Translations under genes and position numbers: made by a program
Notes under the pieces: model-generated
The model's database searches: none
Seen by the model: the letters and a program-made list of their open reading frames with translations, nothing else
Told to the model about the DNA's origin: nothing
In this document: in pieces, positions 20,825-60,261 of the stretch
Layout of the letters: every line of letters begins with the position of its first letter
Position numbering within the stretch: position 1 is the stretch's first letter
NCBI GenBank assembly: GCA_016946835.1
Contig: JACVTC010000029.1
Coordinates: 850,001 to 914,000 of the forward strand
From: Neocallimastix lanati (nom. inval.)
Taxonomy: Eukaryota > Neocallimastigomycota > Neocallimastigomycetes > Neocallimastigales > Neocallimastigaceae
Direction: 5' to 3'
Length of the DNA: 64,000 nucleotides

Positions 20825-23800
20825 ATGAAGAAAAGGTAAGCTTTAATTGATTGAAAATAATAATAAAATAACTTATTTTTATTTATATTGTTAAAGATAT
20901 ATATATATATATATATAATATTTTTTAAAAAAAAGAATAAAAATAAAAATAAAAATATTTTAAAAAATATAAAAATATTCATCATATTTATTTATTTATT
21001 TATCTATCTATCTTTCTATATTTTATTTTATTTTATTTTATTTTTTTTATTATATTGTATTTTATTCAATTGGAACTTTATATTCTTATTTCAATTATTA
21101 TATTTATTTTATTATATTCAATCTATATTTTATATTCATATTTCAATTATTTTATTTTATTTTATTTTATTTTATTTTATTTTATTCAATCTGTACTTTA
21201 TATTCATATTTCAACTATTTATTTTATTTTATTTTATTCAATCTGTACTTAATATTCATATTTCAACTATTTATTTTATTTTATTTTATTCAATCTGTAC
21301 TTAATATTCATATTTCAACTATTTATTTTATTTTATTTTATTCAATCTGTACTTTATATTCATATTTCGACTATTTATTTTATTTTATTTTATTTTAAAA
21401 TAAATATAAATATAAATATATTATAGTAATGATTTAATTTTTGCTATATTAATAAATTTATTATTTATTGATATAGTCATTACGAATAGATTACATAGTA
21501 GAAATGTAGAATTAGAATCCGATGAAAATTATATAATGAGTAATGGTGAAATGATAGTAGGAATTGAAAGTAATAAACCACCAATGACTTATATTAATGA
21601 GGATGGTTTTTTGACCGGTTTCGATACTGAATTTGCTGAGGCTATTTGTTCTAAACTTGGTATTGATATTGTGTTCAAAGAAATTAAGTGGAATGAGAAG
21701 GAAATGGAATTAGAAACAAAAAGTATTGATTGTATATGGAATTCATTGACAGTAACTGAGCCACGACGTGAAATTTTTGAATTTACTCGACCCTATATAA
21801 ATAATAAACAGGTTGTTGTTATCAGACGATCAGATGCCTCCAAATTTACTGATGCGAAAAGTCTTTCTGGTGCAAAAATGACAGCAGGAATTGCGACAAC
21901 GGGGGAAGAAGCACTTCTTGGTGACCCATATCTTTCTCAATCAGATTATACTGCATCACCTTCACAGAATGAAGCAGTACGGGTCCTGAAAGAAGGATTA
22001 TATGATGCTATTGTCATTGATTATACATTAGCAAAAGGATTCATACGTAATTCAAAATCGGATTTGATGGTAATTGAAGAAATTCATCTTCAAGAAGAAC
22101 AATATGCAGTTGGTTTTAGATATGGTTCAGACATGGCTAAAAAAATTGATAACTTATTCTTAAATATGATTTTGGATGGTTCACTTACTGCTCTTTCAGA
22201 AAAATATAATCTATATGATCTCTACTACTCAATTGTCTTAACAGATTATGACTACATAATGAATAAAGGCAAAATGATTATTGGTTTCCAAGAAAATTCA
22301 CCACCAATGAGTTATTATGATAAGAATGGTCGATTGACAGGCTTCGATGTAGAATTTGCTAAGGCGATATGTAAAGATCTAGGTATTGATATAGAATTTA
22401 AGAGTATAATCTGGGATGAAAAAGAAATTAATTTAAATAATCGACAAATTGATTGTATCATGAGTGGATTATCAGTTACAGAAGAACGACAAAGTATTAT
22501 GAAATTTTCATATATCTATATGGGCAATAAGCAAGTAGTTGTGATCAGAAAGTCTGATGCCTCTAAATATACTGATTTGGAAAGTCTTTCTGAAGCAAAA
22601 TTTTCTGTTGAAACTGGATCTGTGGGAGAGAGTATAATTAAAAATGAACAAAGCATTTCAGAATCAAATGCAATCGAGACTTCCTCAACGGAAGAATCTG
22701 TTAAACTTCTAAATAATGGAAATGTTGATGCCATTATTATGGATTATATATTATTATTAGGTTATATAGAGAATGGTTTTACTGATTTGATGGTTATTGA
22801 AGGAATCAATTTTGGTACTGAGGAATATGCAATAGGTTTCCGTTATGGGTCAGATATGACAATAAAGGTCAATGAATTGATTAATAATATGATTACTGAT
22901 GGAAGACTTGAATCACTAGCAAAGAAATACAATCTGATTGATCTTTACAACACAGCAATAAAAATAGATGGAAAATCAGACATGAATTATATTATGACTA
23001 AAGGAGAAATGATAATAGGGATTGAAAGTAATTCACCACTCCTGTCCTATTATGATAATAGTGGTAGATTGATTGGTTTTAATATTGAATTTGCCACAGC
23101 TCTTTGCTCAAGACTCGGTATTTATGTGATATTCAAAACTATTGATTGGAATCAAAGGGAAACAGAATTAAATAATAAAAATGTTGACTGTTTGTGGAAT
23201 TCAATTTCCTTTATCGAAAATAGCAATAATAATGTTGATCTTAGTATGGGCTATTTGATTAATAAACAAGTGATTGTTATCAGAAAGTCTGATATATCTA
23301 AATTTACAAGTTTAGAAAGTCTTTCTGGAGTAAAAATGTCAGCAGGAATTTCGACATTTGGTGAATCATTATTTAAATCTGATTCATACCTTTCAAAAGC
23401 AAAGTATACGGCATCTTCTTCACAGAATGAAGCAATCATTGCTCTTGAAAACAAAACAGTTGATGCTATTATTATCGATTATACATTAGCAAAAGTAAAT
23501 ATAGAAAATGATAACTCCAATTTGATGATTATTGGAGGAATCAACCTTCAGGAAGACCAATATAAAGTTGGTTTTCGAGTTGGTTCAGATATGACTAATA
23601 AAGTCAATAATATCATCTTAGATATGATTATTGATGGTTCACTTGGTAGTATTGCAAAGAAATATGATTTAGTTGATTTATTCATACCATTAAAAACATC
23701 AGATGCTAAATATATCATGGATAAAGGTAAAATGATTATTGGCTATGATGGAGAATATCCACCAATGAGTTTCTATGATAATAATGGTCAATTGATTGGT

Positions 23801-25945
23801 TTTGATATAGATTTTCCTAAAGAAGTATGCAAACGTCTTGGTATTGAAGTAGAATTTAAAGTAATTGATTGGAATAATATGGGATTTTTATTAAAGAATA
23901 GAGATATTGACTGTGTATGGAATGCTTTAACAATTACTGATGACCGACGTACATATATACAATTCTCTCGTGTCTACATGAAATACAGACCAGTGATTGT
24001 AATTAGGGTATCGGATATAGTTAAATTTACTGATTTTCAAATTTTTTCATCAATTAAAATTTCTGCTCAATTGGATACACCGGAAGAGAACGCAATTAAA
24101 AAAGACGTTAATCTTTCAAAAGCAGAATACATTCCATCAACTTCATATATCGAAGCAATAAATGGTTTACGAAATAAAGATTTTGATGCCATTGTTATAG
24201 ATTCCATAAGTGCAATAGGTTGTATTTCTAATGGTTATTCCGATTTGATGATTTTAAATGAGGTAGATAAAGGAGAAGAAGATGCTTATGGTATCGGTTT
24301 TCGTATCGGTTCAGATATGACAATCAAAATCAATAAGTTGATTGTTGATATGATTAACGATGGTACACTTGAATTAATTGCTAAAAAGTATGGTATGCTC
24401 GATAATTATAAATCAGCAATAGCAATAAATGAAGAATCGGAATTAGATTACATTATGTCTAAAGGAGAAATGACCATAGGTATTGATGTTGATGGTAATC
24501 CGATGTCTTATTATGATGATTATGGTGAACTGACAGGTTTTGATACTGAATTTGCGAAAACTGTTTGCTCCAAACTCGGTATTGATGCAATATTCAAGAA
24601 AATTGATTGGGACAAGAAGGAAGAAGAATTAAATAACAAAAATATTGATTGTATTTGGGATTCACTGACTGTTACAGAGGAACGACGTAAATATATTAAA
24701 TTTTCTAATCCTTATTTAACTAATAGACAAGCTGTTTTGATCCGAAGTTCTGATGCTTCTAAATTTACAAATTTGAGCAGTCTTTCTGAAGCAAAATTGA
24801 CAGCAATATTTGGAACCATTAGTGAAGAAGTGATTGAGGAAGACAAATATCTTTCAAAAGCAAATTACACTTCATCATCTTCACAAGAAGAGGCAATAAT
24901 TGGATTACGAAACAATAGTTTTGATGCATTGATTATTGACTATACAATAGCAAAAGGTATTATAACTAATTATGATGATATAATAAATATTAATAAAATT
25001 CGCCTTCATGAGGAACAATATGCCATTGGTTTTCGTCTTAATTCAGACATAACCGAAAAAGTCAATGATATTATGTTAGATATGATATTGGGTGATACCT
25101 TAGCTTCACTTGCGGAAAAGTATGGATTAGTTGATCTTTTTACACCTGTAAAAATAACAGATGCTAATTATATCATGAATAATGGCAAAATGATTATTGG
25201 TTTTGACGGAAGTATGGCACCAATGACTTATTATGATAAAAATGGCCAATTGACGGGTTTCGATATAGATTTTGCTAAAGCAGTATGTAAACAACTTGGT
25301 ATTGAAGCAGAATTCAAACCCGTTGAATGGAGTGAGAAAGAAAATGAATTAAATAATCGAAATATCGATTGTATCTGGAGTTGTTTTAGTATTACGGAAA
25401 AACGACGTGAAATCATAAAATTTTCTCGTGTTTATATGAACAATAAACAAATAGTTGTAATTAGAAAGTCAAATATTATAAAATATCATAGTTTGGAAAG
25501 TATTTCAGAAGCAAAACTTTCCTTTAAAATTGGAACATTAGGTGAGACAGCCATTATGAAATTCTTTCCAAATGGAAATTATCAAGGATTTGAATCTATA
25601 GAAGATGCACTTACTGAATTACAAAATGGAAAAGTAGATGTCGTTGCTATAGACTACACAATAGCTAAAGATAAAATAAATAATGGTGGTTTTTCCGACC
25701 TAATGATTGTTGAATCTATTGAATTAATGAATGATCAATATGCCATTGGATTCCGTCATGGTTCAGATATGTCAAAAAAAGTTAATGTAGTAATAAAAAA
25801 TATGATGTTAGATGGTACACTTAATGCAATTGCTGAAAAATACGATCTATTGAATCTATATACAAAAAAAGAACAATCATCAACTCTTAAAGTAATGCTT
25901 ATTTTATTTATATCATTATATTTTGTGCTAGTTTTAGTGCTCTAA
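20825..25945 (+). CDS. Gene A: secreted six-domain family-3 solute-binding protein, GPI-anchor-like tail
   Basis: Model: exon 1 at 20825-20835 (ATGAAGAAAAG), intron 20836-21426, exon 2 at 21427-25945; 1,509 residues. The main frame has a stop at 21413 and no ATG before 21536, where the first domain already begins, so the exon 1 join is needed. It supplies MKKSNDLIFAILINLLF, a good signal peptide. Six SBP_bac_3 domains start near residues 41, 282, 527, 768, 1014 and 1254. Each has the GFD(I/V)(E/D)FA helix, D-C-I-W strand, T-x-x-R-x(5)-FS loop and (D)AI(V)IDY strand known to bind amino acids in GlnH/HisJ. Domain 3 lacks the arginine (ENSNNNVDLS). The C-terminus (about 1487-1509, after KEQSS) is hydrophobic with no tail, as in GPI signals. 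Downstream lie two partial copies of its 3' end. The ligand is unknown; amino acids are the family norm. Confidence 0.88.
20836..21426 (+). other. Intron 1 of gene A (591 nt)
   Basis: The donor AG|GTAAGC follows an 11-nt exon and the acceptor is ATTATAG|TAATGA. Splicing is in phase (AG|T gives Ser). Retention would give MKKR and a stop (AGG TAA), so unspliced RNA cannot make the protein. Gene B has the same donor and acceptor arrangement with a 132-nt intron. More than half of this longer intron is the 52-bp minisatellite. Confidence 0.8.
21030..21400 (+). repeat. 52-bp minisatellite inside intron of gene A
   Basis: TTCAATCTGTACTT plus ATATTCATATTTCAACTATT followed by TTATTTTATTTTATTTTA repeats with a strict 52-bp period (CAATCTGT at 21187, 21239, 21291, 21343). 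More diverged copies lie to the left. The same unit, inverted, is found inside the foldback element at 32.1-32.3 kb. Confidence 0.9.
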
Positions 25946-27568: not shown

Positions 27569-28623
27569 TCATCATCTTCACAAGAAGAGGCAATAATTGG
27601 ATTACGAAACAATAGTTTTGATGCATTGATTATTGACTATACAATAGCAAAAGGTATTATAACTAATTATGATGATATAATAAATATTAATAAAATTCGA
27701 CTTCATGAGGAATAATATGCCATTGGTTTTCGTCTCAATTCAGACATAACCGAAAAAGTCAATGAAATAATGTTAGATGATACTTTAACTTCTCTTGGGT
27801 ATGGATTAGTTGATCTTTTTACACCTGTAAAAATAACAGATACTAGTTATATCATGAATAATGGCAAAATGGTTGTTGGTTTTGATAAAAATATGGCATA
27901 ATGACTTATTATGATAAAAATGGCCAATTGACGGGTTTCGATATAGATTTTGCTAATACCGTATGTAAACAACTCGGTATTAACGCAGAATTCAAACCCA
28001 TTGAATGGAGTGAGAAAGAAAATAAATTAAATAATCGAAATATCAATTGTATCTGGAGTTGTTTTAGTATTACGGAAAAACGACGTGAAATCATAAAATT
28101 TTCTCGTGTTTATATGAACAATAAACAAATAGTTGTAATTAGAAAGTCAAATATTATAAAATATCATAGTTTGGAAAGTATTTCAGAAGCAAAACTTTCC
28201 TTTAAAATTGGAACATTAGGTGAGACAGCCATTATGAAATTCTTTCCAAATGGAAATTATCAAGGATTTGAATCTATAGAAGATGCATTTACTGAATTAC
28301 AAAATGGAAAAGCAGATGTCGTTGCTATAGATTACACAATAGCTAAAGATAAAATAAATAATGGTGGTTTTTCCGACCTAATGATTGTTGAATCTATTGA
28401 ATTAATGAATGATCAATATGCCATTGGATTCCGTCATGGTTCAGATATGTCAAAAAAAGTTAATTCAGTAATAAAAAATATGACGTTAGATGGTACACTT
28501 AATGCAATTGCTGAGAAATACGATCTATTGAGTCTTTATACAAAAGAAGAACAATCATCAACTCTTAAAGTAATGCTTATTTTATTTATATCATTATATT
28601 TTGTGCTCGTTTTTGTGCTCTAA
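27569..28623 (+). pseudogene. Partial copy 1 of gene A 3' end (domain 5 end, domain 6, anchor tail)
   Basis: This copy matches gene A from residue 1,153 or so to its end, at very high DNA identity. It has no signal peptide and no first four and a half domains. The frame is broken by TAA at 27713-27715 (GAGGAATAATAT for GAGGAACAATAT) and again at about 27899, where GCACCAATGACT has become GCATAATGACT with loss of one base. Two small in-frame deletions lie between them (about 27779 and 27799). Domain 6 from 27901 to the end is open for 240 codons and keeps the RRE arginines and the hydrophobic tail. It could only be expressed as a cytosolic single domain from an internal ATG, which I think unlikely. 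Confidence 0.88.
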
Positions 28624-30072: not shown

Positions 30073-31130
30073 TCATCATCTTCACAAGAAGAGGCAATAA
30101 TTGGATTACGAAACAATAGTTTTGATGCATTGATTATTGACTATACAATAGCAAAAGGTATTATAACTAATTATGATGATATAATAAATATTAATAAAAT
30201 TCGACTTCATGAGGAATAATATGCCATTGGTTTTCGTCTCAATTCAGACATAACCGAAAAAGTCAATGAAATAATGTTAGATGATACTTTAACTTCTCTT
30301 GGGTATGGATTAGTTGATCTTTTTACACCTGTAAAAATAACAGATACTAGTTATATCATGAATAATGGCAAAATGGTTGTTGGTTTTGATAAAAATATGG
30401 CACCAATGACTTATTATGATAAAAATGGCCAATTGACGGGTTTCGATATAGATTTTGCTAATACCGTATGTAAACAACTCGGTATTAACGCAGAATTCAA
30501 ACCCATTGAATGGAGTGAGAAAGAAAATAAATTAAATAATCGAAATATCGATTGTATCTGGAGTTGTTTTAGTATTACGGAAAAACGACGTGAAATCATA
30601 AAATTTTCTCGTGTTTATATGAACAATAAACAAATAGTTGTAATTAGAAAGTCAAATATTTTAAAATATCATAGTTTGGAAAATATTTCGAAAGCAAAAC
30701 TTTCCTTTAAAATTGGAACATTAGGTGAGACAGCCATTATGAAATTCTTTCCAAATGGAAATTATCAAGGATTTGAATCTATAGAAGATGCATTTACTGA
30801 ATTACAAAATGGAAAAGCAGATGTCGTTGCTATAGATTACACAATAGCTAAAGATAAAATAAATAATGGTGGTTTTTCCGACCTAATGATTGTTGAATCT
30901 ATTAAATTAATGAATGATCAATATGCCATTGGATTCCATCATGGTTCAGATATGTCAAAAAAAATTAATGCAGTAATAAAGAATATGATGTCAGATGGTA
31001 CACTTAATGCAATTGCTGAGAAATACGATCTATTGAATCTATATACAAAAAAAGAACAATTATCAACTCTTAAAGTAATGCTTTTTTTTTTTTATATCAT
31101 TATACTTTGTGTTCATTGTAGTTCTCTAAT
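30073..31130 (+). pseudogene. Partial copy 2 of gene A 3' end
   Basis: Same limits and same TAA (30217-30219) and small deletions as partial copy 1, so the two share one damaged ancestor. Here domain 6 is in frame with the domain 5 remnant, leaving an open stretch from 30274 through MAPMTYYDKNGQLTGFDIDF. A longer T-run near 31081-31094 shifts the frame in the anchor tail, so the hydrophobic end is replaced by unrelated residues up to a stop at 31215. A few private substitutions (e.g. FHHGSD for FRHGSD) are consistent with relaxed constraint. Confidence 0.87.
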
Positions 31131-31965: not shown

Positions 31966-32870
31966 ATGTGGTGCGGTGCATTTCGCCAATTTTTATAATA
32001 CAAATTTACAATACGCCATTTATTTTTAATGGCTTGTAAAATTTTAGTCAACGACATAAAAAATTTTAATATAATTATATGTATAAAAAATAAATGTATA
32101 AATAAATAAAGAATGTAATAATATAATTATATAAAATAAAATAAAATAAAATAAAATAAATAGTTGAAATATGAATATAAAATAAAATAAAATAAAATAA
32201 AATAAATAGTTGAAATATGAATATAAAATAAAATAAAATAAAATAAAATAAATAGTTGAAATATGAATATAAAGTACAGATTGAATAAAATAAAATAAAA
32301 TAAAATAAAATAAATGTTCAATGTGATAATATAAAAGTACAAGTATATAAAATAAAATAAATATTTATTATTATTTTATGTTAAAAAATATTAAAGACAA
32401 TTTATTTTTAAAAATAAAAATTTTTTATTTTAATTATAGACGTTAGAAAGCAAAAAAATAATTTATATTTAATGAGATTATTAACAATCAATAATATTGT
32501 TTTATATATTAAATTATATTATTAATTGAATATAATAAAAATGTAAAAAATTTTCATTTCGAAAACATTGGTCTTTATTATTCTTTAATAAAAAATAATA
32601 TTATATATTTATTTTATTTTATTTTATTTTACTTTATTTTATTCAATCTATACTTTATATACATATTCTACTGTTTATTTTATTTTATTTTATTTTATAT
32701 ACTTATTACATTCTTTATTTCTTTATTTATTTATTTATTTATACATTTATTTTTTTTAAATATAATTGTATTAAAATTTTTTATGGCGTTAGCAAAAAAT
32801 TTTACAAGCCATTAAAAATAAATGGCGTATTAAAAATTTGTATTTTAAAAATTGGCGAAATGCACCACAT
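31966..32870. mobile_element. 905-bp foldback/MITE element with about 140-bp terminal inverted repeats
   Basis: The left end ATGTGGTGCGGTGCATTTCG and the right end, read on the other strand, ATGTGGTGCATTTCGCCAAT, are inverted copies. They extend about 140 bp inward (31966-32108 and 32733-32870) and share ACGCCATTTATTTTTAATGG, CTTGTAAAATTTT and ATAAATGTATAAATAAA. The left copy has a 5-bp duplication (GCGGT) near its tip. The interior has no coding capacity. It holds the 52-bp-type minisatellite in one orientation at 32113-32330 and a diverged unit in the opposite orientation at 32620-32700, so much of the element can fold back. A clear target-site duplication was not found. Confidence 0.8.
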
Positions 32871-34447: not shown

Positions 34448-34879
34448 TTATATCTTTTGTTCATTTAAAACAGCTAATCTGTCTTCAAGTTCCTTTTTAA
34501 TTGTTCGAACTTCATCAATGGCTCTTTTACAATTATCTTTAGTTTTTGTAATCTTAGATTGGACTTTAAAATCAGAGAAAACATTATCCATGAAAATATC
34601 AGTAAATTCTAAAAAACCATCTATTTTAATGGTTGGTACGTCTTTAACTTGAACACTTAATTCTTGTATAGCCTTCTTAGCACCTTCAATATATCCTTTA
34701 CTTTCTTTTATTTTATCATGCTTTTGCATACTTGATATAAAACCACCACCGAAGAATGTATCATAAGTACCCCAATTTTTAGCACTTCTAAGTGCTTTAT
34801 TGGCTCTTTCAAGCTTAGCTAAAGCTCTATCAGCTGAAGCAATAGCTTCCTTAATTTCAATTTCTTCAGTACTAACCAT
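34448..34879 (-). CDS. Small helical protein of bacterial type, function unknown
   Basis: 143 residues, no signal peptide or membrane segment. The N-terminal part (about 4-33, EEIEIKEAIASADRALAKLE) and the C-terminal part (about 108-140) are strongly helical and probably coiled-coil. Between them is NWGTYDTFFGGGFISSMQKH (about 35-54). A similar W-G-T-W/Y-D-x-x-G-G-G pattern followed by a KH motif is, from memory, typical of hypothetical proteins in Firmicutes, so this may be a bacterial acquisition. The gene is intronless, starts at the ATG at 34879 and is less AT-rich than the flanks. Its neighbours are members of the binding-protein family, but nothing links it to them functionally. Confidence 0.75.
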   Translation of the reverse strand: MVSTEEIEIKEAIASADRALAKLERANKALRSAKNWGTYDTFFGGGFISSMQKHDKIKESKGYIEGAKKAIQELSVQVKDVPTIKIDGFLEFTDIFMDNVFSDFKVQSKITKTKDNCKRAIDEVRTIKKELEDRLAVLNEQKI

Positions 34880-38591: not shown

Positions 38592-41500
38592 ATGAAAAAG
38601 AGGTAAGCATTGATATATTAAAATAATAAAAAAATATATAAATATAAAAAAAAAAAAAATTTTAAAGTATTATGCTCAAATCAATTGAATAGATATTCAT
38701 GATATTCTATTATAAAAAAAAAAATACATTATAGTAGAAAGGAAATTTTTACTATATTAATAAATATAATATTTATTAATATAGTAGTTGCTAATAATCT
38801 ACATAGTAGAAGTGTAGAATCGGAATCGGATGAAAAGTATATTATGAGTAATGGTGAAATGATTATAGGAATTGAATATAATAAACCTCCAATGACATAT
38901 TATGATAATAGTAGTGATTTGACTGGTTTCGATATTGAATTTGCTGAAGCTATTTGTTCTAAACTCGGTGTTGATATTATATTTAAGGAAATTTCATGGG
39001 ATATGAAGGAAACTGAATTAGAAACAAAAAATGTTGATTGTGTATGGAGTGCATTTACAATTACTGAGACACGTCTTCAGTCTTTTGAATTTACTCGTCC
39101 TTATTTACATAATAAACAAGTTGTTGTTATCAGAAGGTCAGATGTTTCTAAATTTACAGATACAAAAAGTCTTTCTGGAGCAAAAATGTCAGCAGCAGTT
39201 GCAACAACTGGTGAAGAAGCACTTCTTGGTGACCCATATCTCTCACAATCAGATTATACTGAATCATCTACACAGAAAGATGCATTAGATATCCTCAAAA
39301 AAGGATTATGTGATGCTATTGTAATCGACTATACATTTGCAAAATTTTATATAACTAATGATGAATCTGAATTGATGGTAATTGAGAACATTAACCTTCA
39401 AGAAGAACAATATGGTGTTGGATTTCGTCACGGCTCTGATATGACTCAGAAAATCAATAATTTATTCTTGAATATGATTTTGGACGGTTCACTTACTACT
39501 CTTTCAGAAAAATATAATATATATGATCTTTACTCCCCAATCATTTTAACAGATTATGATTACATAATGAATAAAGGCAAAATGATTGTTGGTTTCCAAG
39601 AAAATTTACCACCAATGAATTATTATGATCAAAATGGACAATTGGTTGGTATAGATGTAGATTTTGCTAAAGCAGTATGTGAAGAGCTCGGTATAGATAT
39701 AGAATTCAAAGTTATAGTTTGGGATGATAAAGAAATTGATTTAAAAAATCGACGAATTGATTGTATCTGGAGTGCTTTAACGGTTACAGATGAACGTCGA
39801 GAGATTATGAAATTTTCTCGTGTCTATATGAGTAATACTCAGGTCATTATGATCAGAAAATCTGATGCTGCTAAATTTACTACCCTGGAGGATTTTGTTG
39901 ATTCAACAATGTCTTCTGCAGTTGGATCTGTGGGAGAGAATGTAATTAAAAATGATCAATACCTTTCAAAAGCAAATTTTATAAATTCTTCTTCATCGGA
40001 TGAATCAATTGTAATTTTGAATAACGGGGATGTTGATGCCATCGTTATTGATTATACAATAGCATTAGGTAGTATAGCCAATGGCTTCCCAAATTTAATG
40101 ATTGTTGAAGGTATCAATTTTGGTGAGGAGGTATATGCAGTTGGCTTCCGTTACGGCTCAGATATGACAATTAGACTTAATGAAATAATTAATAGTATGA
40201 TTTCTGATGGTAGACTTGAATCACTTGCTAATAAATACAATCTGGCCGATCTTTACAACGCAGCTGTAAAAGACGATGGAAAATCAGATATGAATTATAT
40301 TATGTCGAAAGGGGAACTGGTAGTAGGAATTGAAGATAATTCATCTATAATGTCTTACTATAATGATAATGGTAAATTGATAGGGTTTGATATTGAATTT
40401 GCTACCACTGTTTGCTCCAGACTCGGTATTTATGTAATATTCAAAAATATTGATTGGGACAAGAAGGAAACCGAATTAAATGACAGAAATATTGACTGCT
40501 TATGGAATTCACTTACAGTTACTGAGGAGAACCATGACAATTTTGAATTCAGTATTGGTTATTTAATTAACAGACAAGTAGTTGTTATCAGAAAATCTGA
40601 TGAATCAAAATATATAAATCTAGAAAGTTTATCTGGAGTAAAAATGTCTGCAGGACATTCAACAATCGGTGAAGAATTATTCAACACTGATCCGTATCTT
40701 TCAAAAGCAAAGTATACAGCATCTTCTTCACAAAATGAGGCAATAGTTGCTCTTAAAAACAAAATAGTTGATGCAATTGTTATTGACTATACTTTAGCCC
40801 AAGGATATATAAAAAGGAGTAATTCTGATTTGATGATCGTTGAAGGAATCAGTCTTAAAGAAGAACCATATAGAATAGGTTTTCGTGCTGGTTCAGATAT
40901 GGCTAAAAAAATTAATAATGTGATTTTAGATATGATTATAGATGATACGCTTTCTACTATTGCAAAGACATATGATTTAATTGATTTTTATACACCATTA
41001 AAAATAACTGATGCTGATTATATAATTAGAAATGGAAAAATGATTATTGCCTATGATGGAGAATTTCCACCAATGAACTATTATGATAATAATGGTAAAA
41101 TGATTGGTTTCGATGTAGAGCTTGCTAATGCAATATGCAATGGTCTTGGAATTGAAGTAGAATTTAAGTTAATTAACTGGGATGAAAAGGAATATGAATT
41201 AAAGAATCGAAATGTTGACTGTATTTTGAATGGCTTAACAATTTCCGATGAACGTCGTTCAGTTATGAAATTCTCTCGTGTCTATATGAAATATAGACCT
41301 GTGATTATCATTAGAAAATCGGATGTTCTTATCTATCATGATATAGAAAGTCTCTCCACAGGAAAAATTTCCGCTGAGCATGATACACCAGAAGAGAATT
41401 CAATTAAAGATAACGTATATCTTTCAAAAGCAGAATACATTCCATCATCCACTCAAATCAACGCAATCATTGGTTTACGAAATAAAGATTTTGATGCAGT

Positions 41501-45107: not shown

Positions 45108-46320
45108 ATGAAAAGAAGAAACAGAATCAAGTATAGAATTATGAATGAAATGATCATAGAATTTGAAAATGATAAATTACCCTATGTTCTATTTTTTGGT
45201 GATGATGATCTTTCAGAAAAAAATAATTTATATGAACTTTATTCTTCAATAATCGTGAATGTGAAAAGCTCGGTATAGATGGTAGAATTTAAAATTACAC
45301 TTCGAGATGAAAAAAAAAAAATATTTAAATTATTGAAAAATTGATTGCTATATGGAGCACTTTAGCAGTTATAGAGGAATGACAAGAGATTGTGAAATTT
45401 ATATGAGTAATACACAAATAATTATGATCAGAAAATTTGATGCTTCTAAATATACTAATTTTGAAGGTTTTTACGAAACAACATTCTCTGCTAAAACTAT
45501 ATCAATAGGTGAGAATACAATTAAAAAACATTCATATTCTTATCTTTCAAATACAAATTAAAAAAAGTCTTTTTCAAAGGTTTCAAAGGAAGAATTAATT
45601 TTAATTTTAGATAAGGGAAATATTGATGTCATTGTTATTGATTATACATTATCTCTAAGTTATATAGCTAGTGGTTACCTTGATTTGTTGTTGAAGGAAT
45701 AAACTTTGATGATGAAGTATATGCAGTTAGTTTCCATTACGGATCAGATATCAGTAAAGATTAATGAAATAATTGATAATATGATTACTAATAATAGAAT
45801 TAAATCACTGGCTAAGAAATACAATCTAAACTATCTTTATAACATAGAAGTAAAAACTAATAAAAAATCAGACATAAGTTATATTATGTCCAAAGGAGAA
45901 CAAATAATAGGAATTGAAGATAATTCACCACCTTTTATGATGATAAATGGTAAAAAAATAGGTTTTAATATTAAATTTACTACAAAAATTTACTCCAGAC
46001 TCGATATTTATATGATATTTAAAAATATTGATTTGGATAAAAAGGAAACTGAATTAAATGATAAAAATTCAAAGAACTTGAAATTTATTCAGAATTCAAA
46101 CAAGTTGATTGGGCTGAGAAAAAAAGAGAATTAAAGAATCGAATTAGTGAAATTTTCTTATATTTAAATGAACAATAAATAAGTTTTTGTGATCCGAAAA
46201 TCCTTCATCATTGAATTAAAATACTTTAGAAAGTCTTTTAAAAGCAATACTTTCCTCTAAAATCGGAATATTAAGTGAATAAGCACTTAAGACATATCTT
46301 CAAAATACAAAATATTAAAG
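45108..46320 (+). pseudogene. Decayed, internally deleted member of the six-domain binding-protein family
   Basis: The order of homologous pieces is: start of domain 1 (MNEMIIEFENDKLP, about 45141), end of domain 1 (DLSEKNNLYELYSS, about 45211), domain 2 from its first helix on (about 45262-45850, several frames), linker and start of domain 3 (MSKGEQIIGIEDNSPP, about 45886), then a jump into domain 6 (EFKQVDWAEKKRELK-like, about 46090-46320). Most of domain 1, the front of domain 2, and everything from mid-domain 3 through domain 5 are missing. Multiple stops and frame changes make it a clear pseudogene. It is closest by eye to genes B and C, between which it lies. Confidence 0.88.
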
Positions 46321-48102
46321 ATTTATTCAATTTTAATTTCATCTTTATTAATATAATTTATTCATCTCATATAAACAAAATATTCATCTAAATCAAAGAA
46401 TTAAATGTAAAATCATACAATGGATTATTAATTAAAATAATATATATTATATAATATAAACTACATAATTTTTTATTTGTATTTATAGAAAATGAAATTT
46501 TAATAATTAAAAGTAAATTTATTTATAAATTTATCTAATTTACATTTATTCATACACTCATTTATAATTAAAATTTATTTAAATTAATATTATCAATTCA
46601 AATAATTTAAAATGTATGGGAAATACATTTAATTATTAATTTTTTTTTTTTTTTAAAAAAAAAAAATTAATCTAAACTCCAATATAATAAAGTATTAAGT
46701 TTTTTAAAATTAAAATGATAATAAATTTTAAATTTTAACTTTTTATTTATTTATTTATTCATTTATTTATTTATTTAGAAAAAAATTCTTCACTTATATT
46801 TAAAAATAAAAGATAAAAAATAAAGATTTAATAAATTACGATTAATTTATTTCATATATTAGTCAATACTCATTTTTTGTTTTTATTTTTTTTTTATGAT
46901 ATATATATTACATACTTTAAATTTTAATATATATATTATATATAAATATTAATAATATTTTATATTTAATATTCTTTGTAGATGAATGTATTATATATAT
47001 ATTTTAAGAGAATTAAAAATATGTGGATGGAATTAAAATGTAGATTATAATATATATATATATATATTAGGTAAACTTTTATTAAAAAATAAAAATGTTT
47101 AAGAAATAAAAAGTTATATTTATTTACTTTTTATTATACTTCTATAGAAATTTCATCTTCCTATTTTGTTTCTATTATTTTTATTATATATTTATCAATA
47201 TATAAAATTAAATTACATATTTAAAGAAATTATTTCCAAACTAAAGACTAGAAAAAATGATGTTTATATAATTAAAATTTTTTTTGGAATATAGTTTAAA
47301 TAATATTAATTCTATCATTTTAATCTTCACATCATTTTTCCTTTAGAAATTTGTTTGTCTTTTGACCTTCTAATCGTTTTCAAGATAGAATTATTTCAAA
47401 ATTATTATTCCCATAAGATTAGAAATAGCTTTTTCTTTTTTCTTTTTCAATTATTTTATTTATAATTTTAACCTTTTTTTTAAAGTATTAATTGTAATAT
47501 ATTTTATAAAAGAAGATAATAAAAAAATTTTTGATTAAATTAATAATCAATATAATTAATTATAGACATCAATTGTATACACATATACACTTTTCATATA
47601 ATTTTTAAAGTTTAAATTTTTTTTTTTTTTTATTTAAAATTTTATTTTTTTTTAAATTTTATTTTATTTTTTATTTTATTTTTTTTTTTTTTAATTCATA
47701 TAGTTTCACTTTTTTTTTTTTTTTTACGATATATTGCCTTAGCTTAGCTAATTTAATTTTAACTTTATTTTTATATTATATACTATTTTTTTATATTTTG
47801 ATTATTTTATTTTTTGATCTTTTGATTATTTTATTTATCTTTATGATATATCGAATTAACTTATTTTATTTTTTTTTATTTTCATGTTAATTTTAATATA
47901 TTTTATTATATTAATCTAAATCATTTAAAAAATTAATATTATTAATATTACTATTTTTTATTTTCAATATAAATAAAATATATAATATATATTTAAATTA
48001 ATTATTATGTCTATTACAATAATATAATTGAAAAATCATTATAATTAATAAAAATAAATATATAAATATATAAATAAATAAATAAAAAAAAAAAAAAAAG
48101 AA
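46321..48102. other. Intergenic AT-rich DNA
   Basis: No coding frames. Contains TTTA arrays (about 46741-46780), (AT)n tracts and poly(T). Position 47330-47420 is slightly more mixed but unrecognised. Confidence 0.6.
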
Positions 48103-51100: not shown

Positions 51101-52696
51101 ATTAATGATGGAACACTAGAATTAATTGCTAAAAAGTACGATCTGTTAAAGTATTATGAATCAACAATAATTAAAAATGATATTTCAGACTATGAATACA
51201 TTATATCTAAAGGAGAAATGATCATAGGTGTTGATATTGATGGTCCACCTATATCTTATTATGATGAATATGGTGAATTGACTGGTTTTGATACTGAATT
51301 TGCTAAAGCTGTTTGCTCTAAACTCGGTATTGATGCGGTATTCAAGAAAATTGATTGGGACAAGAAAGAAGAAGAATTAAATAACAAAAATATTGATTGT
51401 ATTTGGGATGCACTGACAGTAACAGAGGAACGCCATAATTATTTTAAATTCTCTAATCCCTATTTAAGTAACAGACAAGCTGTTGTTATCAGAAGTTCCG
51501 ATGCTTCTAAATTTACAGATACGAAGAGCCTTTCTGAAGCAAAATTGACAGCAATATTTGGAACAATTAGTGAAGAAGTGATTGAAGAAGACCAATATCT
51601 TTCAAAAGCAAATTACAATTCATCATTTACACAAGAAGAGGCAGTAATAGGTTTAAAAAATAAAAGTTTTGATGCCATAGTTATCGATTATACAATAGCA
51701 AAAGGTATTATTAATAATAATAATGATCTAATGATTATTAATGATATTCACCTTAGTGAGGAACAATATGCAGTTGGTTTTCGTCTCAATTCAGACATAC
51801 CAGAAAAAGTCAACAATATGATATTAGATATGATATTGGATGATACACTAAACAATCTTGCAAAAAAGTATGGATTAGTTGATCTTTTTACACCAGTAAA
51901 AATAACTGATGCTAGTTATATCATGAATAACGGCAAAATAATTATTGGTTTCGATGGAAGTATGGCACCGATGACTTATTATGACAAGAATGATCAATTA
52001 ACCGGTTTCGATATAGATTTAGCCAAGGCCGTTTGCCATCGACTTGGCATTACGGCAGAATTCAAAGAGGTTGATTGGACTGAAAAAGAGAATGAATTAA
52101 AGAATCGAAATATCGACTGCATCTGGAGTTGCTTTAGCATTACGGAAAAACGACGTGAAACTGTGAAATTTTCTCGTGTTTATATGAATAATAAACAAAT
52201 TATTGTGATTAGAAAATCTAATATTATAAAATTTTATACGGTAGAAAGTCTTTCAAATGCAAGAATATCCTCTAAAATAGGAACATTAGGCGAGACAGCC
52301 ATTAAAACCTACCTTCCAAATGCGACTTTCCAAGGATTTCCTGATCTAGAAGATGCGCTTATTGAATTGGAAAAAGGAAATATAGATGCTGTTGTTACAG
52401 ACTATACAATGGCCAAAGATAAAATAAACAATGGTGGTTTTTCCGATCTGATGATTATTGAAGGAATTGAACTAATGAATGATCAATATGCTATTGGATT
52501 CCGTTATGGTTCAGACATGTCAAAAAAAGTCAATGAAATAATAAAGAATATGACATTAGATGGTACAATTAATGAAATTGCTGAAAAATACGATCTATTA
52601 GATCTTTATTCACATAATAAGGGTTCATCAAAAAAAAATATTTTAGAGGTTTCTTTATTTATGGCATTATTTTTTGTACTCATTATAGCATTATAA
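48146..52696 (+). CDS. Gene C: secreted six-domain family-3 solute-binding protein, GPI-anchor-like tail
   Basis: 1,516 residues in one exon. The N-terminus MLLYNKIYYNKKVIFNILIY is a signal peptide; its first third is read from sequence that is intron in genes A and B. Domains start near residues 47, 288, 533, 774, 1020 and 1260. Arginine of the T-x-x-R ligand loop is present in domains 1, 2, 5 and 6. It is replaced in domain 3 (EESFNNIDFS) and domain 4 (MENQRSVIKYS, Gln at the Arg position). Domain 2 lacks the helix cysteine (EIFKDLGI). The C-terminus has SHNKGSSKK, a plausible GPI attachment site, followed by a hydrophobic end. Its nearest relative here is gene D: the tails, the domain 6 wording (FKEVDWTEKENEL) and the 3' untranslated block agree. 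The two genes are convergent, 3 kb apart. Confidence 0.93.
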   Translation: MLLYNKIYYNKKVIFNILIYLLFINVVITDRLHIRYEESESDENYIMSNGEMIIGIENNKPPMTYCDNIGDLTGFDIEFAEAVCSKLGIDIVFKEIKWSMKESELESKSIDCVWSALTVTEPRRNIFEFTRSYIYNKQAVVIRRSDASKFTDTKSLSRAQIAVKNSSTSEEALLGDPYLSQSNYTTTSSQTESLNFLKNGLCDAIIIDYTFAKFYVPNDKSDLKIIEDINLQEEQYAVGFRHGSDMVHKLDNLFLNMILDGSLTALSEKYNLYDLYAPIILTDYDYIMNKGIIIIGFLENLPPMNYYDKNGQLIGFDVDFAKEIFKDLGIDIKFKSISWDEKEIELNNRRIDCIWSALTVTDERREIIKFSRVYMSDSQAIIIRKSDTSKYADIESFSNVKISAVTGSLAENLIKNNPYLSNSKLIISSSNKEAIIMLENEEIDAVIIDYTVAVNLIAKSSKDLMVVEGIDFDNEEYAVGFRYGSDMTVKVNELINNMINDGRLESLAKKYNLINLYNTAINIDGKSDMNYIMSKGELIVGIEDNSPPMSYYDNSGRLMGFDIELLTEICSRLGIYVIFKNIDWNKKEEELNDKNIDCFLNSQSITEESFNNIDFSIGYLINKQVVVIRKSDESKFSNAESLSGVKMSAGHSTVGEELFKYDAHLKKAKYTASSSQNEAIAALENKTVDAIVIDYATAKVNIENDKPNLMIVEGIILQEKQYRIGFRAGSDMTKKVSNIILDMNIDGKLSTFATKYDLVDSFIALKTTDAKYIMENGKMIIGYYGEYPPMSYYDNNDQLTGFDTEFAKAICKRLGIEAEFKLIDWNEKDSELKNRNIDCIWNGLNVMENQRSVIKYSRIYMKYKPVVVIRKSDILIYTNFESLSTEKITAEFNTPEEKALKKDKYLSKAKYTSSYSEYTAINALRNHIFDAIVIDPISAIGLIGNDYSDMMILSELTDAEEESYAVGFRIGSDMTVKVNKLINDMINDGTLELIAKKYDLLKYYESTIIKNDISDYEYIISKGEMIIGVDIDGPPISYYDEYGELTGFDTEFAKAVCSKLGIDAVFKKIDWDKKEEELNNKNIDCIWDALTVTEERHNYFKFSNPYLSNRQAVVIRSSDASKFTDTKSLSEAKLTAIFGTISEEVIEEDQYLSKANYNSSFTQEEAVIGLKNKSFDAIVIDYTIAKGIINNNNDLMIINDIHLSEEQYAVGFRLNSDIPEKVNNMILDMILDDTLNNLAKKYGLVDLFTPVKITDASYIMNNGKIIIGFDGSMAPMTYYDKNDQLTGFDIDLAKAVCHRLGITAEFKEVDWTEKENELKNRNIDCIWSCFSITEKRRETVKFSRVYMNNKQIIVIRKSNIIKFYTVESLSNARISSKIGTLGETAIKTYLPNATFQGFPDLEDALIELEKGNIDAVVTDYTMAKDKINNGGFSDLMIIEGIELMNDQYAIGFRYGSDMSKKVNEIIKNMTLDGTINEIAEKYDLLDLYSHNKGSSKKNILEVSLFMALFFVLIIAL

Positions 52697-55333: not shown

Positions 55334-55335
55334 TT

Positions 55336-55595: not shown

Positions 55596-55608
55596 ATTAA
55601 TTATAATA

Positions 55609-55663
55609 AATAAATATTTTAATGTATTTATTGATATTAAATTCAATCAATTTTAATATTGTT
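55609..55663 (-). other. Conserved 55-nt 3' untranslated block of gene D
   Basis: Read on the minus strand it is identical to 52730-52784 downstream of gene C, including the AATAAATACATT signal. Confidence 0.7.
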
Positions 55664-55698
55664 CATTAGTAGTTTTACAAAACAAAAATACTTCAAAT

Positions 55699-58600
55699 TT
55701 ATACTGTTATAATGAGTACAAAAAATGATGCCATAAATAAAAAAGCAGCAATAATACTTTTTTTTGATGAACCCTTATTATGTGAATAAAGATTTAAAAG
55801 ATCATATTTTTTAGCAATTTCATTAATTGTACCATCTAATGTCATATTCTTTATTATTTCATTGACTTTTTTTGACATGTCTGAACCAAAACGGAATCCA
55901 ATAGCATATTGATCATTCATTAATTCAATTCCATCAATAATCATCAGATCGGAAAAACCACCATTATTTATTTTATCTTTGGCCAATGTGTAGTCTGTAA
56001 CAACAGCATCTATATGTCCTTTTTCCAATTCAGTTAGCGCATCTTCTAGATCAGGAAATCCTTGGAAAATTGCGTCTGGAAGGTAGGTTTTAATGGCTGT
56101 CTCACCTAATGTTCCTATTTTATAGGATATTCTTGCATTTGAAAGACTTTCTACCGTATAAAATTTTGTAATATTAGATTTTCTAATCACAATAATTTGT
56201 TTATTATTCATATAAACACGAGAAAATTTCACGATTTCACGTCGTTTTTCCGTAATGCTAAAGCAACTCCAGATGCAGTCGATATTTCGAATCTTTAATT
56301 CATTCTCTTTTTCAGTCCAATCAACCTCTTTGAATTCTGCCGTAATGCCAAGTCGTTGGCATACGGCCTTGGCTAAATCTATATCGAAACCGGTCAATTG
56401 ACCATCCTTGTCATAATACGTCATCGGTGCCATATTTCCATCGAAACCAATAATCATTTTGTCGTTATTCATGATATAAGTAGCATCAGTTATTTTAACT
56501 GGTTCAAAAAGATCAACTAATCCATACTTTTTTGCAAGAGTAGCTAGTGTGCCATCCAACATCATATCCAATATTATATAATTAACCCTTTCGGTAATGT
56601 CTGAATCGACACGAAATCCAATTGCATATTGTTCCTCAAGGAGATAAAGCTTATTAATAATCATTAAATCATCATTATTAGCAATAATAGCTTTTGCTAT
56701 CGAGTAATCAATAACAAAGGCATCAAAACTTTCATTTTTTAAGCCACCTATTGCTTCGCTTTGTGTGATAGTTGCAGTGTAATTTGCTTTTGAAAGATCT
56801 GGGTGGTCTTTGATTACTTTTTCAGTAATTGCCCCCAATAATGTTGTCAATTTTGCTTCAGAAAGACTTTTTGTATCCGTAAATTTAGTGGCATCGGAAC
56901 TTCGGATAATAACAGTTTGTCTGTTACTTAAATAAGGGCTTGAAAATTTAAAATAATTTTGACGTTCCTCTGTGACTGTCAGTGCCTCCCATACACAATC
57001 AATATCTTTGTTTCTTAATTCTTCTTCCTTCTTAGTCCAATCAATTTTTTTGAATATTGCATCAATACCGAGTTTGGAGCAAGCAGCTTTAGCGAACTCA
57101 GTATCAAAACCGGTTAATTCACCATATTCATCATAATACGATATTGGTGGCCCGTTAACACCAACACCTATAATCATTTCTCCTTTGGTCATAATGTAAT
57201 TTAAATCAGAATTTTCATTAATTTTTATTGCTGATTTATAATTTTCGAGAAGATTATACTTTTTAGCAATTAATTCAAGTGTACCATCATTAATCATTTC
57301 ATTAATCAGCTTATTAACCTTTACTGTCATATTTGAACCGATACGGAAACCGATAGCGTACTCCTCCTCCTTTTCATCTGACAATTCAGTAAGAATCGTT
57401 AAATCAGGATAACCATTGGAAATGTAGCCTATGGCGCTTACGGAATTGATAACAATACCATCAAAAATTTTATCTTTCAATCCTACGATTGCTTCAATTT
57501 GTGTGGATGATGAAATAAATATTGCTTTTGAAAGATTTTTGTTGCTTTTAAGTATTTTCTCTTCTACTGTATTAGACACAGCAGAAACTTTTGCATTGGA
57601 AAGACTAGTAAGATCATGATAATTAAGGACATCGGATTTTCTAATTACAACCACTGGTCGATATTTTATATAGGTACGAGAAAATTTTATACTGCCAAGA
57701 AGTTCCTCTGAAACTGTTAAACCACTCCATACACAGTCGATATTTCGATTTTTTAATTCAGTCACCTTTTCTTCCCAAATAATCATTTTAAATTCTACAT
57801 CAATACCGAGACGTTTACAAATAGCTTTAGAAAACTCTACATCAAACCCAATTAATTGACCCTTACTATCACTATAACTTAAAGGTGGGTATTCTCCATT
57901 ATAACCGATAATCATTTTTCCTTTTCTCATTATATAATCCGCATCGGTTATTTTTAATGGTCCAAATATATCAACTAAATCGTATTTCTTTGCAAGAGTG
58001 GCAAGTGTACCATCAATATTCATATCTAAGATCACGTTATTGACTTTTTTAACCATTTCTGAACCAACGCGAAAACCTATTCTATATTGCTCCTCTGGAA
58101 AACTGATTCCTTCAACGATCATCAAATTGGAGTTACTGCTTTCTGTATTTATTTTTGCAAGAGTATAGTCGATAACAATGGCATCAACTGTTTTCTTTTC
58201 AAGAGCAACAATTGATTCATTCTGTGAAGGAGATGCTGTATACTTTGCTTTTGTAAGATATGGGTCAGATTTAAATAAATTTTCACCGGCTGTCGAATGT
58301 CCAGCAGACATTTTTACTCCAGAAAGACTTTCTGCATTTGTAAATTTTGATTCATCCGATTTTCTGATAACCACCACTTGTCTGTGAATTAAATAGCCGA
58401 TACTGAAATCAATATTATCGCCGGTTTCTCCTGTCACTGAAAGTGGATTCAATATACAGTCAATAGTTTTATCATTTAATTCGGATTCCTTCTTATCCCA
58501 ATCAATATTTTTGAATACCGCATAAATACCGAGTCTGGAGCAAATTTCTGTAACAAATTCAATATCAAAACCTACCAGTCTACCTATATTATCATGATAG

Positions 58601-60261
58601 GACATCACTAATGAATCTTCTTCAATTCCTATTATTAGTTCCCCTTTAGACATAATATGATCGACGTCAGATTTTTTATCTATATCTATTATTTTATTGT
58701 AAAGTTCGAATAGATTGTATTTCCTTGCAAGTGATTCAAGTCTACCATCAGTAATCATGTTATTAATTATTTCATTGACTTTTATGACCATATCTGAACC
58801 ATAACGGAAACCAACGGCATAGTGCTCTTCATCAAAATCAATACCTTCAACAACCATCAAATTTTGATAGCCGTTGGCTATATTACCTAGCGCTATTGTA
58901 TAATCAATAACGATGGCATCAACATCTCCGTTATCAAGCATTTCAATTGAATCTTCTATTGTTAAAGAATTGATGAAATTTGAATTTGAAAGATATGGAT
59001 TATTTTTAATTAAATTTTCACCTATCGATCCAGTGGCAGCAGACATTTTTACTTCAGAAAAACTTTCTATATCAGTATATTTGGATGCATCCGATTTTCT
59101 GATTAAAATTGCCTGGGTATCGCTCATATAGACACGAGAGAATTTCATAATCTCTCGACGTTGATCTGTAACTATTAAAGCACTCCAGATACAATCAATT
59201 TGTCGATTATTTAATTCGGTTTCTTTTTCATCCCAAATAATAGACTTGAATTCTGTATCAAGACCGAGATCTCCGAATACTTCCTTTGCAAAATCTACAT
59301 CGAAACCAACCAATTGGTCATCTTCATCGTAATAATTCATTGGTGGTAAATTTTCTTGGAAACCGATGATGATTTTTCCTTTATTCATGATGTAATCATC
59401 ATCGGTTAGGATCATTGGGGCGTAAAGATCGTATAAATTATATTTTTCTGAAAGAGTCGTAAGTAACCCATCCAAAATCATATTTAAGAATAAATTATCT
59501 AGTTTGAGAGCCATATCCGAACCGTGACGAAATCCTACAGCAAATTGTTCCTCTTGGAAGTGAATATCCTCAATGATCATCATATCGGATTTATCATTTG
59601 ATATAAAATATTTTGCAAACGTATAATCGACAACAATAGCATCACATAATCCATTTTTCAGGATATCGAAAGCTTCTATCTGTGAAGATGTTCCAGTATA
59701 ATCAGATTGAGAGAGAAAGGTATCGCTGAGAATTGCTTCTTCACCAGCTGTCGATATTCCTGCTGCTATTTTTACTCCAGAAAGACTGTTTGTATCTGTA
59801 AATTTAGAAGCGTCTGACCTTCTGATAACAACAACCTGTTTATTATACATGTAAGGAAGAGTAAATTCAAAGATATTACGTCGTGGTTCTGTGACTGTTA
59901 ATGAACTCCACACACAATCAATACTTTTTGATGCTAATTCAGTTTCCTTCATCTCCCATTGAATTTCTTTGAATATAACATCTATACCAAGTTTGGAGCC
60001 AATGGCCTCAGCAAATTCAATATCGAAACCGGTCAAAAAATTATCATCATCATAATAGGTCATAGGAGGTTTATTATTTTCAAATCCTATGACCATTTCA
60101 CCATTACTCATTATATAGTTTTCATCTGATTCTGTTCCTTCATCTCTAATATGCAAATTATTAGCAATTACTGTATTAATAAATAATAATTTTATTAATA
60201 TAGGAAAAAATAAAATTTTACAGTAATGTATGTCATTATATAAAAATTTTTTAAATACCAT
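55699..60261 (-). CDS. Gene D: secreted six-domain family-3 solute-binding protein, GPI-anchor-like tail
   Basis: 1,520 residues, one exon, opposite in direction to the rest of the family. Signal peptide: MVFKKFLYNDIHYCKILFFP onward, cleaved before about ANNLHIRD. As in gene C, the first codons correspond to intron in gene B (ACATTACTG here, ACATTATAG there). Domains start near residues 51, 292, 537, 778, 1024 and 1264. The ligand-loop arginine is present in domains 1, 2, 5 and 6. It is absent from domain 3 (GETGDNIDFS) and domain 4 (SEELLGSIKFS). The helix cysteine is missing in domains 1 (AIGSKLG) and 2 (EVFGDLG). The tail SHNKGSSKKSIIAAFLFMAS fits a GPI signal. No cytoplasmic segment. Ligand unknown; only four of six domains look able to bind an amino-acid carboxylate in the usual way. 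Confidence 0.93.
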   Translation of the reverse strand: MVFKKFLYNDIHYCKILFFPILIKLLFINTVIANNLHIRDEGTESDENYIMSNGEMVIGFENNKPPMTYYDDDNFLTGFDIEFAEAIGSKLGIDVIFKEIQWEMKETELASKSIDCVWSSLTVTEPRRNIFEFTLPYMYNKQVVVIRRSDASKFTDTNSLSGVKIAAGISTAGEEAILSDTFLSQSDYTGTSSQIEAFDILKNGLCDAIVVDYTFAKYFISNDKSDMMIIEDIHFQEEQFAVGFRHGSDMALKLDNLFLNMILDGLLTTLSEKYNLYDLYAPMILTDDDYIMNKGKIIIGFQENLPPMNYYDEDDQLVGFDVDFAKEVFGDLGLDTEFKSIIWDEKETELNNRQIDCIWSALIVTDQRREIMKFSRVYMSDTQAILIRKSDASKYTDIESFSEVKMSAATGSIGENLIKNNPYLSNSNFINSLTIEDSIEMLDNGDVDAIVIDYTIALGNIANGYQNLMVVEGIDFDEEHYAVGFRYGSDMVIKVNEIINNMITDGRLESLARKYNLFELYNKIIDIDKKSDVDHIMSKGELIIGIEEDSLVMSYHDNIGRLVGFDIEFVTEICSRLGIYAVFKNIDWDKKESELNDKTIDCILNPLSVTGETGDNIDFSIGYLIHRQVVVIRKSDESKFTNAESLSGVKMSAGHSTAGENLFKSDPYLTKAKYTASPSQNESIVALEKKTVDAIVIDYTLAKINTESSNSNLMIVEGISFPEEQYRIGFRVGSEMVKKVNNVILDMNIDGTLATLAKKYDLVDIFGPLKITDADYIMRKGKMIIGYNGEYPPLSYSDSKGQLIGFDVEFSKAICKRLGIDVEFKMIIWEEKVTELKNRNIDCVWSGLTVSEELLGSIKFSRTYIKYRPVVVIRKSDVLNYHDLTSLSNAKVSAVSNTVEEKILKSNKNLSKAIFISSSTQIEAIVGLKDKIFDGIVINSVSAIGYISNGYPDLTILTELSDEKEEEYAIGFRIGSNMTVKVNKLINEMINDGTLELIAKKYNLLENYKSAIKINENSDLNYIMTKGEMIIGVGVNGPPISYYDEYGELTGFDTEFAKAACSKLGIDAIFKKIDWTKKEEELRNKDIDCVWEALTVTEERQNYFKFSSPYLSNRQTVIIRSSDATKFTDTKSLSEAKLTTLLGAITEKVIKDHPDLSKANYTATITQSEAIGGLKNESFDAFVIDYSIAKAIIANNDDLMIINKLYLLEEQYAIGFRVDSDITERVNYIILDMMLDGTLATLAKKYGLVDLFEPVKITDATYIMNNDKMIIGFDGNMAPMTYYDKDGQLTGFDIDLAKAVCQRLGITAEFKEVDWTEKENELKIRNIDCIWSCFSITEKRREIVKFSRVYMNNKQIIVIRKSNITKFYTVESLSNARISYKIGTLGETAIKTYLPDAIFQGFPDLEDALTELEKGHIDAVVTDYTLAKDKINNGGFSDLMIIDGIELMNDQYAIGFRFGSDMSKKVNEIIKNMTLDGTINEIAKKYDLLNLYSHNKGSSKKSIIAAFLFMASFFVLIITV

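Follow-up and report, generated by a model that had tools for sequence, protein, structure and literature searches.

Tandem arrays of six bacterial-type amino-acid-binding domains, apparently secreted and surface-tethered, in the rumen fungus Neocallimastix lanati

Binding proteins of the SBP_bac_3 type are textbook parts of bacterial pumps. In this work, such domains were analyzed in a stretch of 64,000 bases (hereafter the window; bases 850001-914000 of a 1,513,079-base contig) from Neocallimastix lanati, an anaerobic rumen fungus with a 199-Mb assembly of 762 contigs. The window carries a cluster of four intact genes (A-D) and three relics that encode SBP_bac_3 domains in tandem. The best explanation, to which we give about even odds, is that the gene products are secreted and tethered to the cell surface, each being an array of several amino-acid-binding pockets that descends from bacteria and has been re-tuned. 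Multiplied binding domains without the bacterial pump suggest an unusual mode of catching or sensing amino acids.

The four long reading frames of the window (1509, 1515, 1529 and 1521 amino acids) match the SBP_bac_3 model PF00497 with whole-protein E-values of 8.5e-172 to 3e-180 (563-591 bits), and a domain profile made in this analysis resolves every intact gene into exactly six domains of ~235 amino acids each, as an earlier note on this DNA had read from the translations. The frames, both profiles and the mapping of the relics also bear out the inventory of that note, four intact genes and three relics, within the window; elsewhere in the genome it has to be extended by a fifth intact six-domain copy, gene E, on contig C32 and by a PF00497 fragment on contig C57 that is interrupted by three stop codons. 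All 36 genome-wide PF00497 matches exceed the curated cut-off: 29 lie in this cluster, six in gene E, and one is the C57 fragment, so that 35 come from the arrays and two of the relics, the third relic being too decayed for detection in that search. The profile match agrees with the structure models of gene D domains 3-6, which are predicted to be two-lobe folds of the type II periplasmic binding protein (PBP-II) class. Both modelled fungal domain pairs can be aligned with PDB 6h30 across 442-445 residues, the domains being oriented differently to each other (root-mean-square deviation near 19).

The bacterial ancestry of the domains is borne out by a tree of 56 fungal and 49 bacterial domains, in which the two sets occupy opposite sides of a branch with 100% support in the Shimodaira-Hasegawa-like approximate likelihood ratio test (SH-aLRT). 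The fungal rows represent nine proteins, a part of the domains at hand, and the bacterial rows were picked by similarity; the bacterial side consists of substrate-binding proteins (SBPs) of Clostridia. Read with this choice of rows in mind, the tree fits a single acquisition, and two donors are unneeded, since the fungal domains form one group. A search with gene D domain 1 as the sole query returned three proteins, each of which falls among fungal domains, and nothing bacterial; a query built from an alignment of ten fungal domains returned 1397 proteins and reached bacteria. From 480 bacterial loci 80 were retained, and the best 19 of these show 46-51% identity; 18 of the 19 are labelled Lachnospiraceae, and the titles of six name goat, sheep or deer gut. 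Both loci that were checked with Pfam (L013 and L024) encode an SBP followed by a BPD_transp_1 permease and an ATP-binding cassette (ABC) ATPase, that is, an operon. Contamination was rejected because the fungal genes lie inside a 1.5-Mb contig, the GC content of the window is 8-42% per kb, and an apparent spliceosomal-type intron is common to two of the genes.

The permease of such importers appears to be missing from the fungus. No BPD_transp_1 match was found in the whole assembly, window included, by a six-frame search that disregarded introns (17 of 17 candidates scored; 14 of 14 controls detected), and no PF00528 match is present in genes A-D or in the listed domains of the related proteins P0001-P0018. 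The absence of a permease from the window, noted earlier, is thus confirmed genome-wide for the ABC-importer type; it does not extend to secondary transporters, one of which, of the CitMHS type, lies at 4110-5396. This minus-strand, intronless CitMHS/ArsB-like permease frame (428 amino acids) has 44% GC in a window whose intergenic flanks measure 10.7-13.5%, and a second copy, 87% identical, is found on contig C117; it looks like a recent bacterial acquisition.

The six domains appear to have arisen in steps. Inter-domain linkers in genes A-E alternate between 5, 9, 5, 9 and 5 residues. In a tree of 47 domains from eight six-domain proteins (A, B, D, P0006, P0007, P0008, P0009 and P0014) and seven bacterial rows, odd-numbered domains (support 100/98), even-numbered domains (95/92) and bacteria (100/100) form separate groups, and domains of the same position group across N. 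lanati, Piromyces and metagenome relatives at all six positions, the weakest being position 5 (70/79). Genes C and E, P0013, P0015 and others stand outside this tree, yet within a further domain analysis (linkers and tree), which omits the near-copies P0004 and P0010 and rows under about 200 residues. In the quick tree of 56 and 49 domains, positions 1 and 5 are poorly separated, and domain 5 of P0009 falls with position 1 with weak support. The grouping by parity and position implies that one domain gave rise to a two-domain unit, which was then tripled; judged by these sequences, the six domains are three copies of that unit, and the tripling would most simply predate the split of Neocallimastix and Piromyces. 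In the eight-domain proteins P0002 and P0011, domains 1-4 pair with domains 5-8, which indicates the doubling of a four-domain block. Ratios of nonsynonymous to synonymous divergence (dN/dS, NG86) among the five paralogues are 0.32-0.43 (10 pairs) and 0.20-0.63 for single domains, the synonymous term being rough in such AT-rich DNA; as the ratios of all six domains are below 1, every one of them, the divergent third included, looks constrained.

Signal peptides and glycosylphosphatidylinositol (GPI) tails were called from sequence composition. The long exons of genes A and B start without an in-frame ATG, and each is preceded by the motif ATGAA(A/G)AA(A/G)AG followed by a donor GTAAGC, with an acceptor ATTATAG before a T; splicing would yield MKKS and a hydrophobic core. 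In gene A, ATGAAGAAAAG followed by GTAAGC would be joined to the acceptor at 21427 to give MKKSNDLIFAILINLLF..., and the start coordinate 20825 plausibly marks this mini-exon. Exon 1 of gene A (20825..20835, plus strand) would thus encode MKK and the first two bases of the serine codon ahead of the donor, and exon 2 (21427..25945, plus strand) the signal-peptide core, six SBP_bac_3 domains, the GPI-like tail and the stop. Gene B has the equivalent arrangement on the same strand, with exon 1 at 38592..38602 (MKK and the first two bases of the serine codon) and exon 2 from 38735 to 43250 (core, six SBP_bac_3 domains, GPI-like tail); both mini-exons are predictions from the DNA. In genes C, D and E, in-frame ATGs precede a similar hydrophobic core. 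All five genes end in a short polar spacer and a hydrophobic stretch running up to the stop, with no charged residues after the tail.

A hydrophobic-window scan of genes A-E and eight relatives is consistent with the signal-peptide-like start and the GPI-like tail that the earlier note ascribed to each intact gene. Hydrophobic windows in A-E are found at the two termini; internal ones are marginal, at one start in B and at two in C, as they are in the relatives P0008 and P0013. The flanks of the array frames have 10.7-13.5% GC and appear non-coding, and the frames themselves showed neither a transmembrane nor a signalling segment in their interior. Four matches to Gpi16, a GPI transamidase subunit, are present in the genome, on contig C35. 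Together, the signal sequence and the C-terminal tail would point to proteins that a GPI anchor holds at the membrane or wall.

To compare the ligand pockets, residues were numbered on Escherichia coli HisJ and ArgT. According to the consulted portion of PMC4192606, Arg77 binds the ligand carboxylate, Ser72 and Asp161 hold the amine, Tyr14 stacks on the side chain and Asp11 meets the guanidinium. Among the 30 N. lanati domains, Trp52 and Asp161 are each present in 29 and Arg77 in 22; Trp52, Arg77, Asp161 and Ser/Thr72 occur jointly in 21. Arg77, Asp161 and Ser/Thr72 are combined in 65 of 89 fungal domains, these pocket counts leaving aside the relics and P0004, P0010, P0012, P0016, P0017 and P0035-P0037. 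By the backbone-binding residues, then, an amino-acid-type pocket is probably retained in most domains.

The side-chain contacts have behaved differently. Across 74 columns that are conserved in 40 bacterial relatives, the HisJ contacts 14, 11, 117 and 121 are the most varied in the 89 fungal domains. A set of 12 contacts, which includes positions 117, 120 and 121 as further ligand contacts, has a mean of 1.78 bits, compared with 0.87 in the remaining columns, and only 10 of 20000 random sets are as high (1 of 20000 for N. lanati alone). Because the patterns used to find bacterial sequences prescribe residues around 69-72 and 161, part of the bacterial invariance at those sites stems from the selection; none of columns 11, 14, 117 and 121 is covered by the patterns. 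The ligand loop has the HisJ length in 83 of the 89 fungal domains and exceeds by one residue the loop found in 182 of 184 bacterial relatives. As columns 11 and 14 belong to this remodelled loop, they are less securely aligned to bacterial columns; how much they vary among the fungal domains is independent of that alignment. Since most domains keep the backbone grip while their side-chain contacts have diverged, they probably differ in the amino acids or related amines that they bind.

These observations can be combined into a mechanism. An ancestor of the anaerobic fungi would have acquired a single SBP_bac_3 domain, without its permease, from a clostridium resembling Lachnospiraceae, as the trees and the genome search indicate; linkers, trees and gene order suggest that it was duplicated to a two-domain unit, that the unit was tripled and that whole genes were copied into a cluster. 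The pockets would have kept their backbone-gripping features at most positions while the residues that contact side chains diverged. Secreted and GPI-attached to the membrane or wall, as the signal sequence and tail suggest, an array could use up to six Venus-flytrap pockets per molecule to catch amino acids that are set free in the rumen and are in short supply, and concentrate them locally for ordinary fungal secondary transporters, which is the use that we prefer.

Several points weigh against this explanation. Arg77 is missing from 8 of the 30 N. lanati domains, namely from position 3 in all five copies and from position 4 in three of five (C, D and E). All six single domains of gene D score below every NCBIfam specificity cut-off (cystine, Lys/Arg/Orn, GlnH, HisJ and others); domain 6, whose best match is the Lys/Arg/Orn-binding family, reaches 130 bits where the cut-off is 256 and so is not a member, and the whole proteins pass such cut-offs because the scores of six copies are summed. 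A contact set of 10 positions taken from PDB titles of mutants of the lysine/arginine/ornithine-binding protein (LAO) gives a weaker signal than the 12-contact set (1.56 against 0.93 bits; 280 of 20000 random sets as high, and 283 of 20000 for N. lanati alone). Within one orthologous position, nine pocket columns, one of them wrongly labelled, show no clear excess of conservation over the remaining columns (random sets as low for positions 1-6: 363, 1808, 2239, 4568, 2155 and 1453 of 5000). The deposited model of gene C (P0003), named 'periplasmic binding protein-like II', Neocallimastix lanati, opens with another exon and has no signal sequence, and the deposited model of the Piromyces homologue (P0006) has no signal peptide either; both models begin after or outside the hydrophobic core. 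Finally, no hand-over partner is known.

A more specific version, which we put forward tentatively, is an antenna whose positions have separate ligand specificities and which, not being part of an ABC importer, serves as a trap-and-hand-over or sensing device; position 6 might take basic amino acids and position 3 an amine or another ligand that lacks a free carboxylate. As pocket columns do not clearly stand out in conservation within positions, ligands that differ by position are no more than predicted, with the firmest grounds at positions 1 and 6.

Bacterial binding proteins are known to touch chemoreceptors, and by analogy a liganded array might touch a class C G-protein-coupled receptor (GPCR) or another receptor and so guide zoospores or nutrient responses. 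This role as a sensor or co-receptor is rather unlikely in our estimate. Receptors are plentiful, since scoring 150 of 303 candidates gave at least 131 7tm_3 matches across the genome, and sugar-type SBPs are already carried on them: six of seven SBP_bac_8 matches have a 7tm_3 neighbour that shares their strand and lies in a frame of equal length. The consulted text of PMC5168858 also proposes zoospore guidance for sugar SBPs. Against this, not one of the 36 SBP_bac_3 matches coincides with or neighbours any 7tm_3 match listed, the array frames have no transmembrane signalling part, and no partner is known. Among the scored candidates no 7tm_3 match falls inside the window. Direct fusion to a class C GPCR was rejected, and fusion to a Lig_chan pore appears unlikely, since neither 7tm_3 nor Lig_chan (PF00060) has a Pfam match in genes A-D; a genome search for PF00060 gave no matches, its controls being likewise silent, and PF10613, a ligand-binding model related to Lig_chan, scores 87-88.5 bits over the six copies in genes A-D. 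The adjoining SBP_bac_8 and 7tm_3 matches, on contigs C751 (two), C643, C412, C434 and C738, support the existence of SBP-headed GPCRs in N. lanati.

Improbable in our view is that the arrays are adhesins or structural repeats, binding plant fibre, bacteria or hyphae, with ligand binding incidental or lost. Fungal adhesins are commonly long tandem repeats with a GPI-like tail, and the arrays resemble them in both respects; a bacterial family named 'bifunctional adhesin/Asp-Glu-binding protein' shares the fold, the arrays matching below its cut-off, and the lack of special conservation of pocket columns within positions would also suit such a role. The backbone-binding residues are nevertheless largely kept (Arg77 and Asp161, as counted above), the bacteria-conserved columns that changed most are side-chain contacts, and no Ser/Thr-rich stalk was seen in the translations.

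It is very unlikely that the arrays are the binding part of an ABC importer, because no matching permease was found in the genome. Both nearest bacterial loci checked do encode importers, and at least 19 ABC ATPase matches occur in the genome (19 of 344 candidates scored), so an undetected ABC-like system might be imagined; the empty BPD_transp_1 search rejects an amino-acid importer of class 3.A.1.3, and the consulted text of PMC5168858 places SBP-coupled ABC uptake systems, up to its date, in prokaryotes only. Hardly credible, too, is a catalytic or scavenging reuse of the fold, on the analogy of cyclohexadienyl dehydratase, an enzyme descended from amino-acid-binding proteins: the sequence and fold comparisons do match structures of AncCDT and of this dehydratase, but such matches can stem from common ancestry, and plain binding proteins score equally well or better.

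In the window, the arrays extend over 20825-25945 (A), 38592-43250 (B), 48146-52696 (C, plus strand, counted from the first in-frame ATG) and 60261-55699 (D, minus strand), C and D standing tail to tail. Within gene D (55699..60261), a six-domain array, the odd-type domains 1 (59422..60129), 3 (57964..58671) and 5 (56506..57210) alternate with the even-type domains 2 (58699..59406), 4 (57238..57948) and 6 (55786..56490), all on the minus strand, and the GPI-like tail, taken from the translation and the hydrophobicity scan, occupies 55702..55785 on that strand. The carboxylate-binding Arg77 is replaced by Thr in domain 3 and by Leu in domain 4, which also has Asn for Asp161; domain 5 retains Arg77 and Asp161, and domain 6 retains Asp11, Trp52, Arg77 and Asp161.

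Relic 1 (27581..28620, plus strand) is a 5'-truncated 3' end of gene A with part of domain 5, domain 6 and the tail, its frame broken; relic 2 (30085..31113, plus strand) is a tandem duplicate of that truncated unit. Their DNA identity to gene A and its downstream flank is 95.8% and 90.4%, respectively, and as both start at the same point within gene A, the truncated copy was itself duplicated. Relic 3 (45340..46324, plus strand) is an older, decayed domain 2-3 region with about 42-48% identity to A-E over its main stretch. A minisatellite with a unit of about 52 bases lies within the gene A intron (21046-21394); a related unit occurs on the opposite strand at 32129-32299, enclosed by a 900-base imperfect inverted repeat (31972-32869). 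Two short frames have no Pfam or NCBIfam match: one of 148 amino acids at 34448-34894 (minus strand), and one of 92 amino acids at 494-772 (plus strand), which has the look of a retroelement fragment.

Two elements of this picture were reported before, namely permease-less fungal SBPs and the transfer of SBP_bac_3 to Neocallimastix. The consulted text of PMC11291939 describes SBP_bac_3 xenologues in Neocallimastix californiae and Anaeromyces, the same kind of transfer to anaerobic fungi; the donor is given there as Oscillospiraceae for N. californiae, whereas Lachnospiraceae are nearest in the present sample, and the array architecture, its origin from dyads and the pocket changes are absent from the text examined. 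The examined part of PMC5168858 describes Type II SBPs of gut fungi and SBP-headed class C GPCRs, which are likewise bacterial-type SBPs without ABC importer parts, and proposes sequestration or zoospore guidance for them. Those proteins are of the sugar type, whereas the present arrays are of the amino-acid type, six in a row and apart from the listed seven-transmembrane matches; the 70% mutual coverage filter of that study would probably have missed them. The idea is now extended to amino acids and to tandem arrays; among the literature matches listed, no account of a six-domain SBP_bac_3 architecture was found.

With the bacterial SBP_bac_3 proteins (HisJ, LAO/ArgT, GlnH, ArtJ and the Lachnospiraceae homologues), the fungal domains share the fold, the domain length and the Arg77/Asp161 frame, and Trp52 is common to them and their Clostridia relatives, where HisJ has Leu and ArgT has Phe. 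Unlike these single SBPs, the fungal arrays have six covalent copies, an apparent eukaryotic secretion signal and GPI-like tail, a predicted intron in two genes, a diversified side-chain pocket and no permease. Covalent tandem SBP_bac_3 domains are also found in GlnPQ-type importers with tandem substrate-binding domains (PDB 6h30). The metagenome proteins P0019 and P0020 carry six SBP_bac_3 stretches on one chain with a BPD_transp_1 permease, which the fungal arrays lack; their domains score 11-80 bits against the fungal profile, compared with about 250-340 for most Clostridia-type single-domain SBPs, and these bacterial-type chains represent an independent tandem array. In this eukaryote no such pump was found, and its binding part now exists in many copies, has apparently been tethered, and has been re-tuned. 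The arrays offer a testable case of how a transferred domain can become useful in a cell of another plan, some 30 related pockets within a single genome as a natural series for studies of specificity change, and a link to the competition of anaerobic fungi for nitrogen in the rumen.

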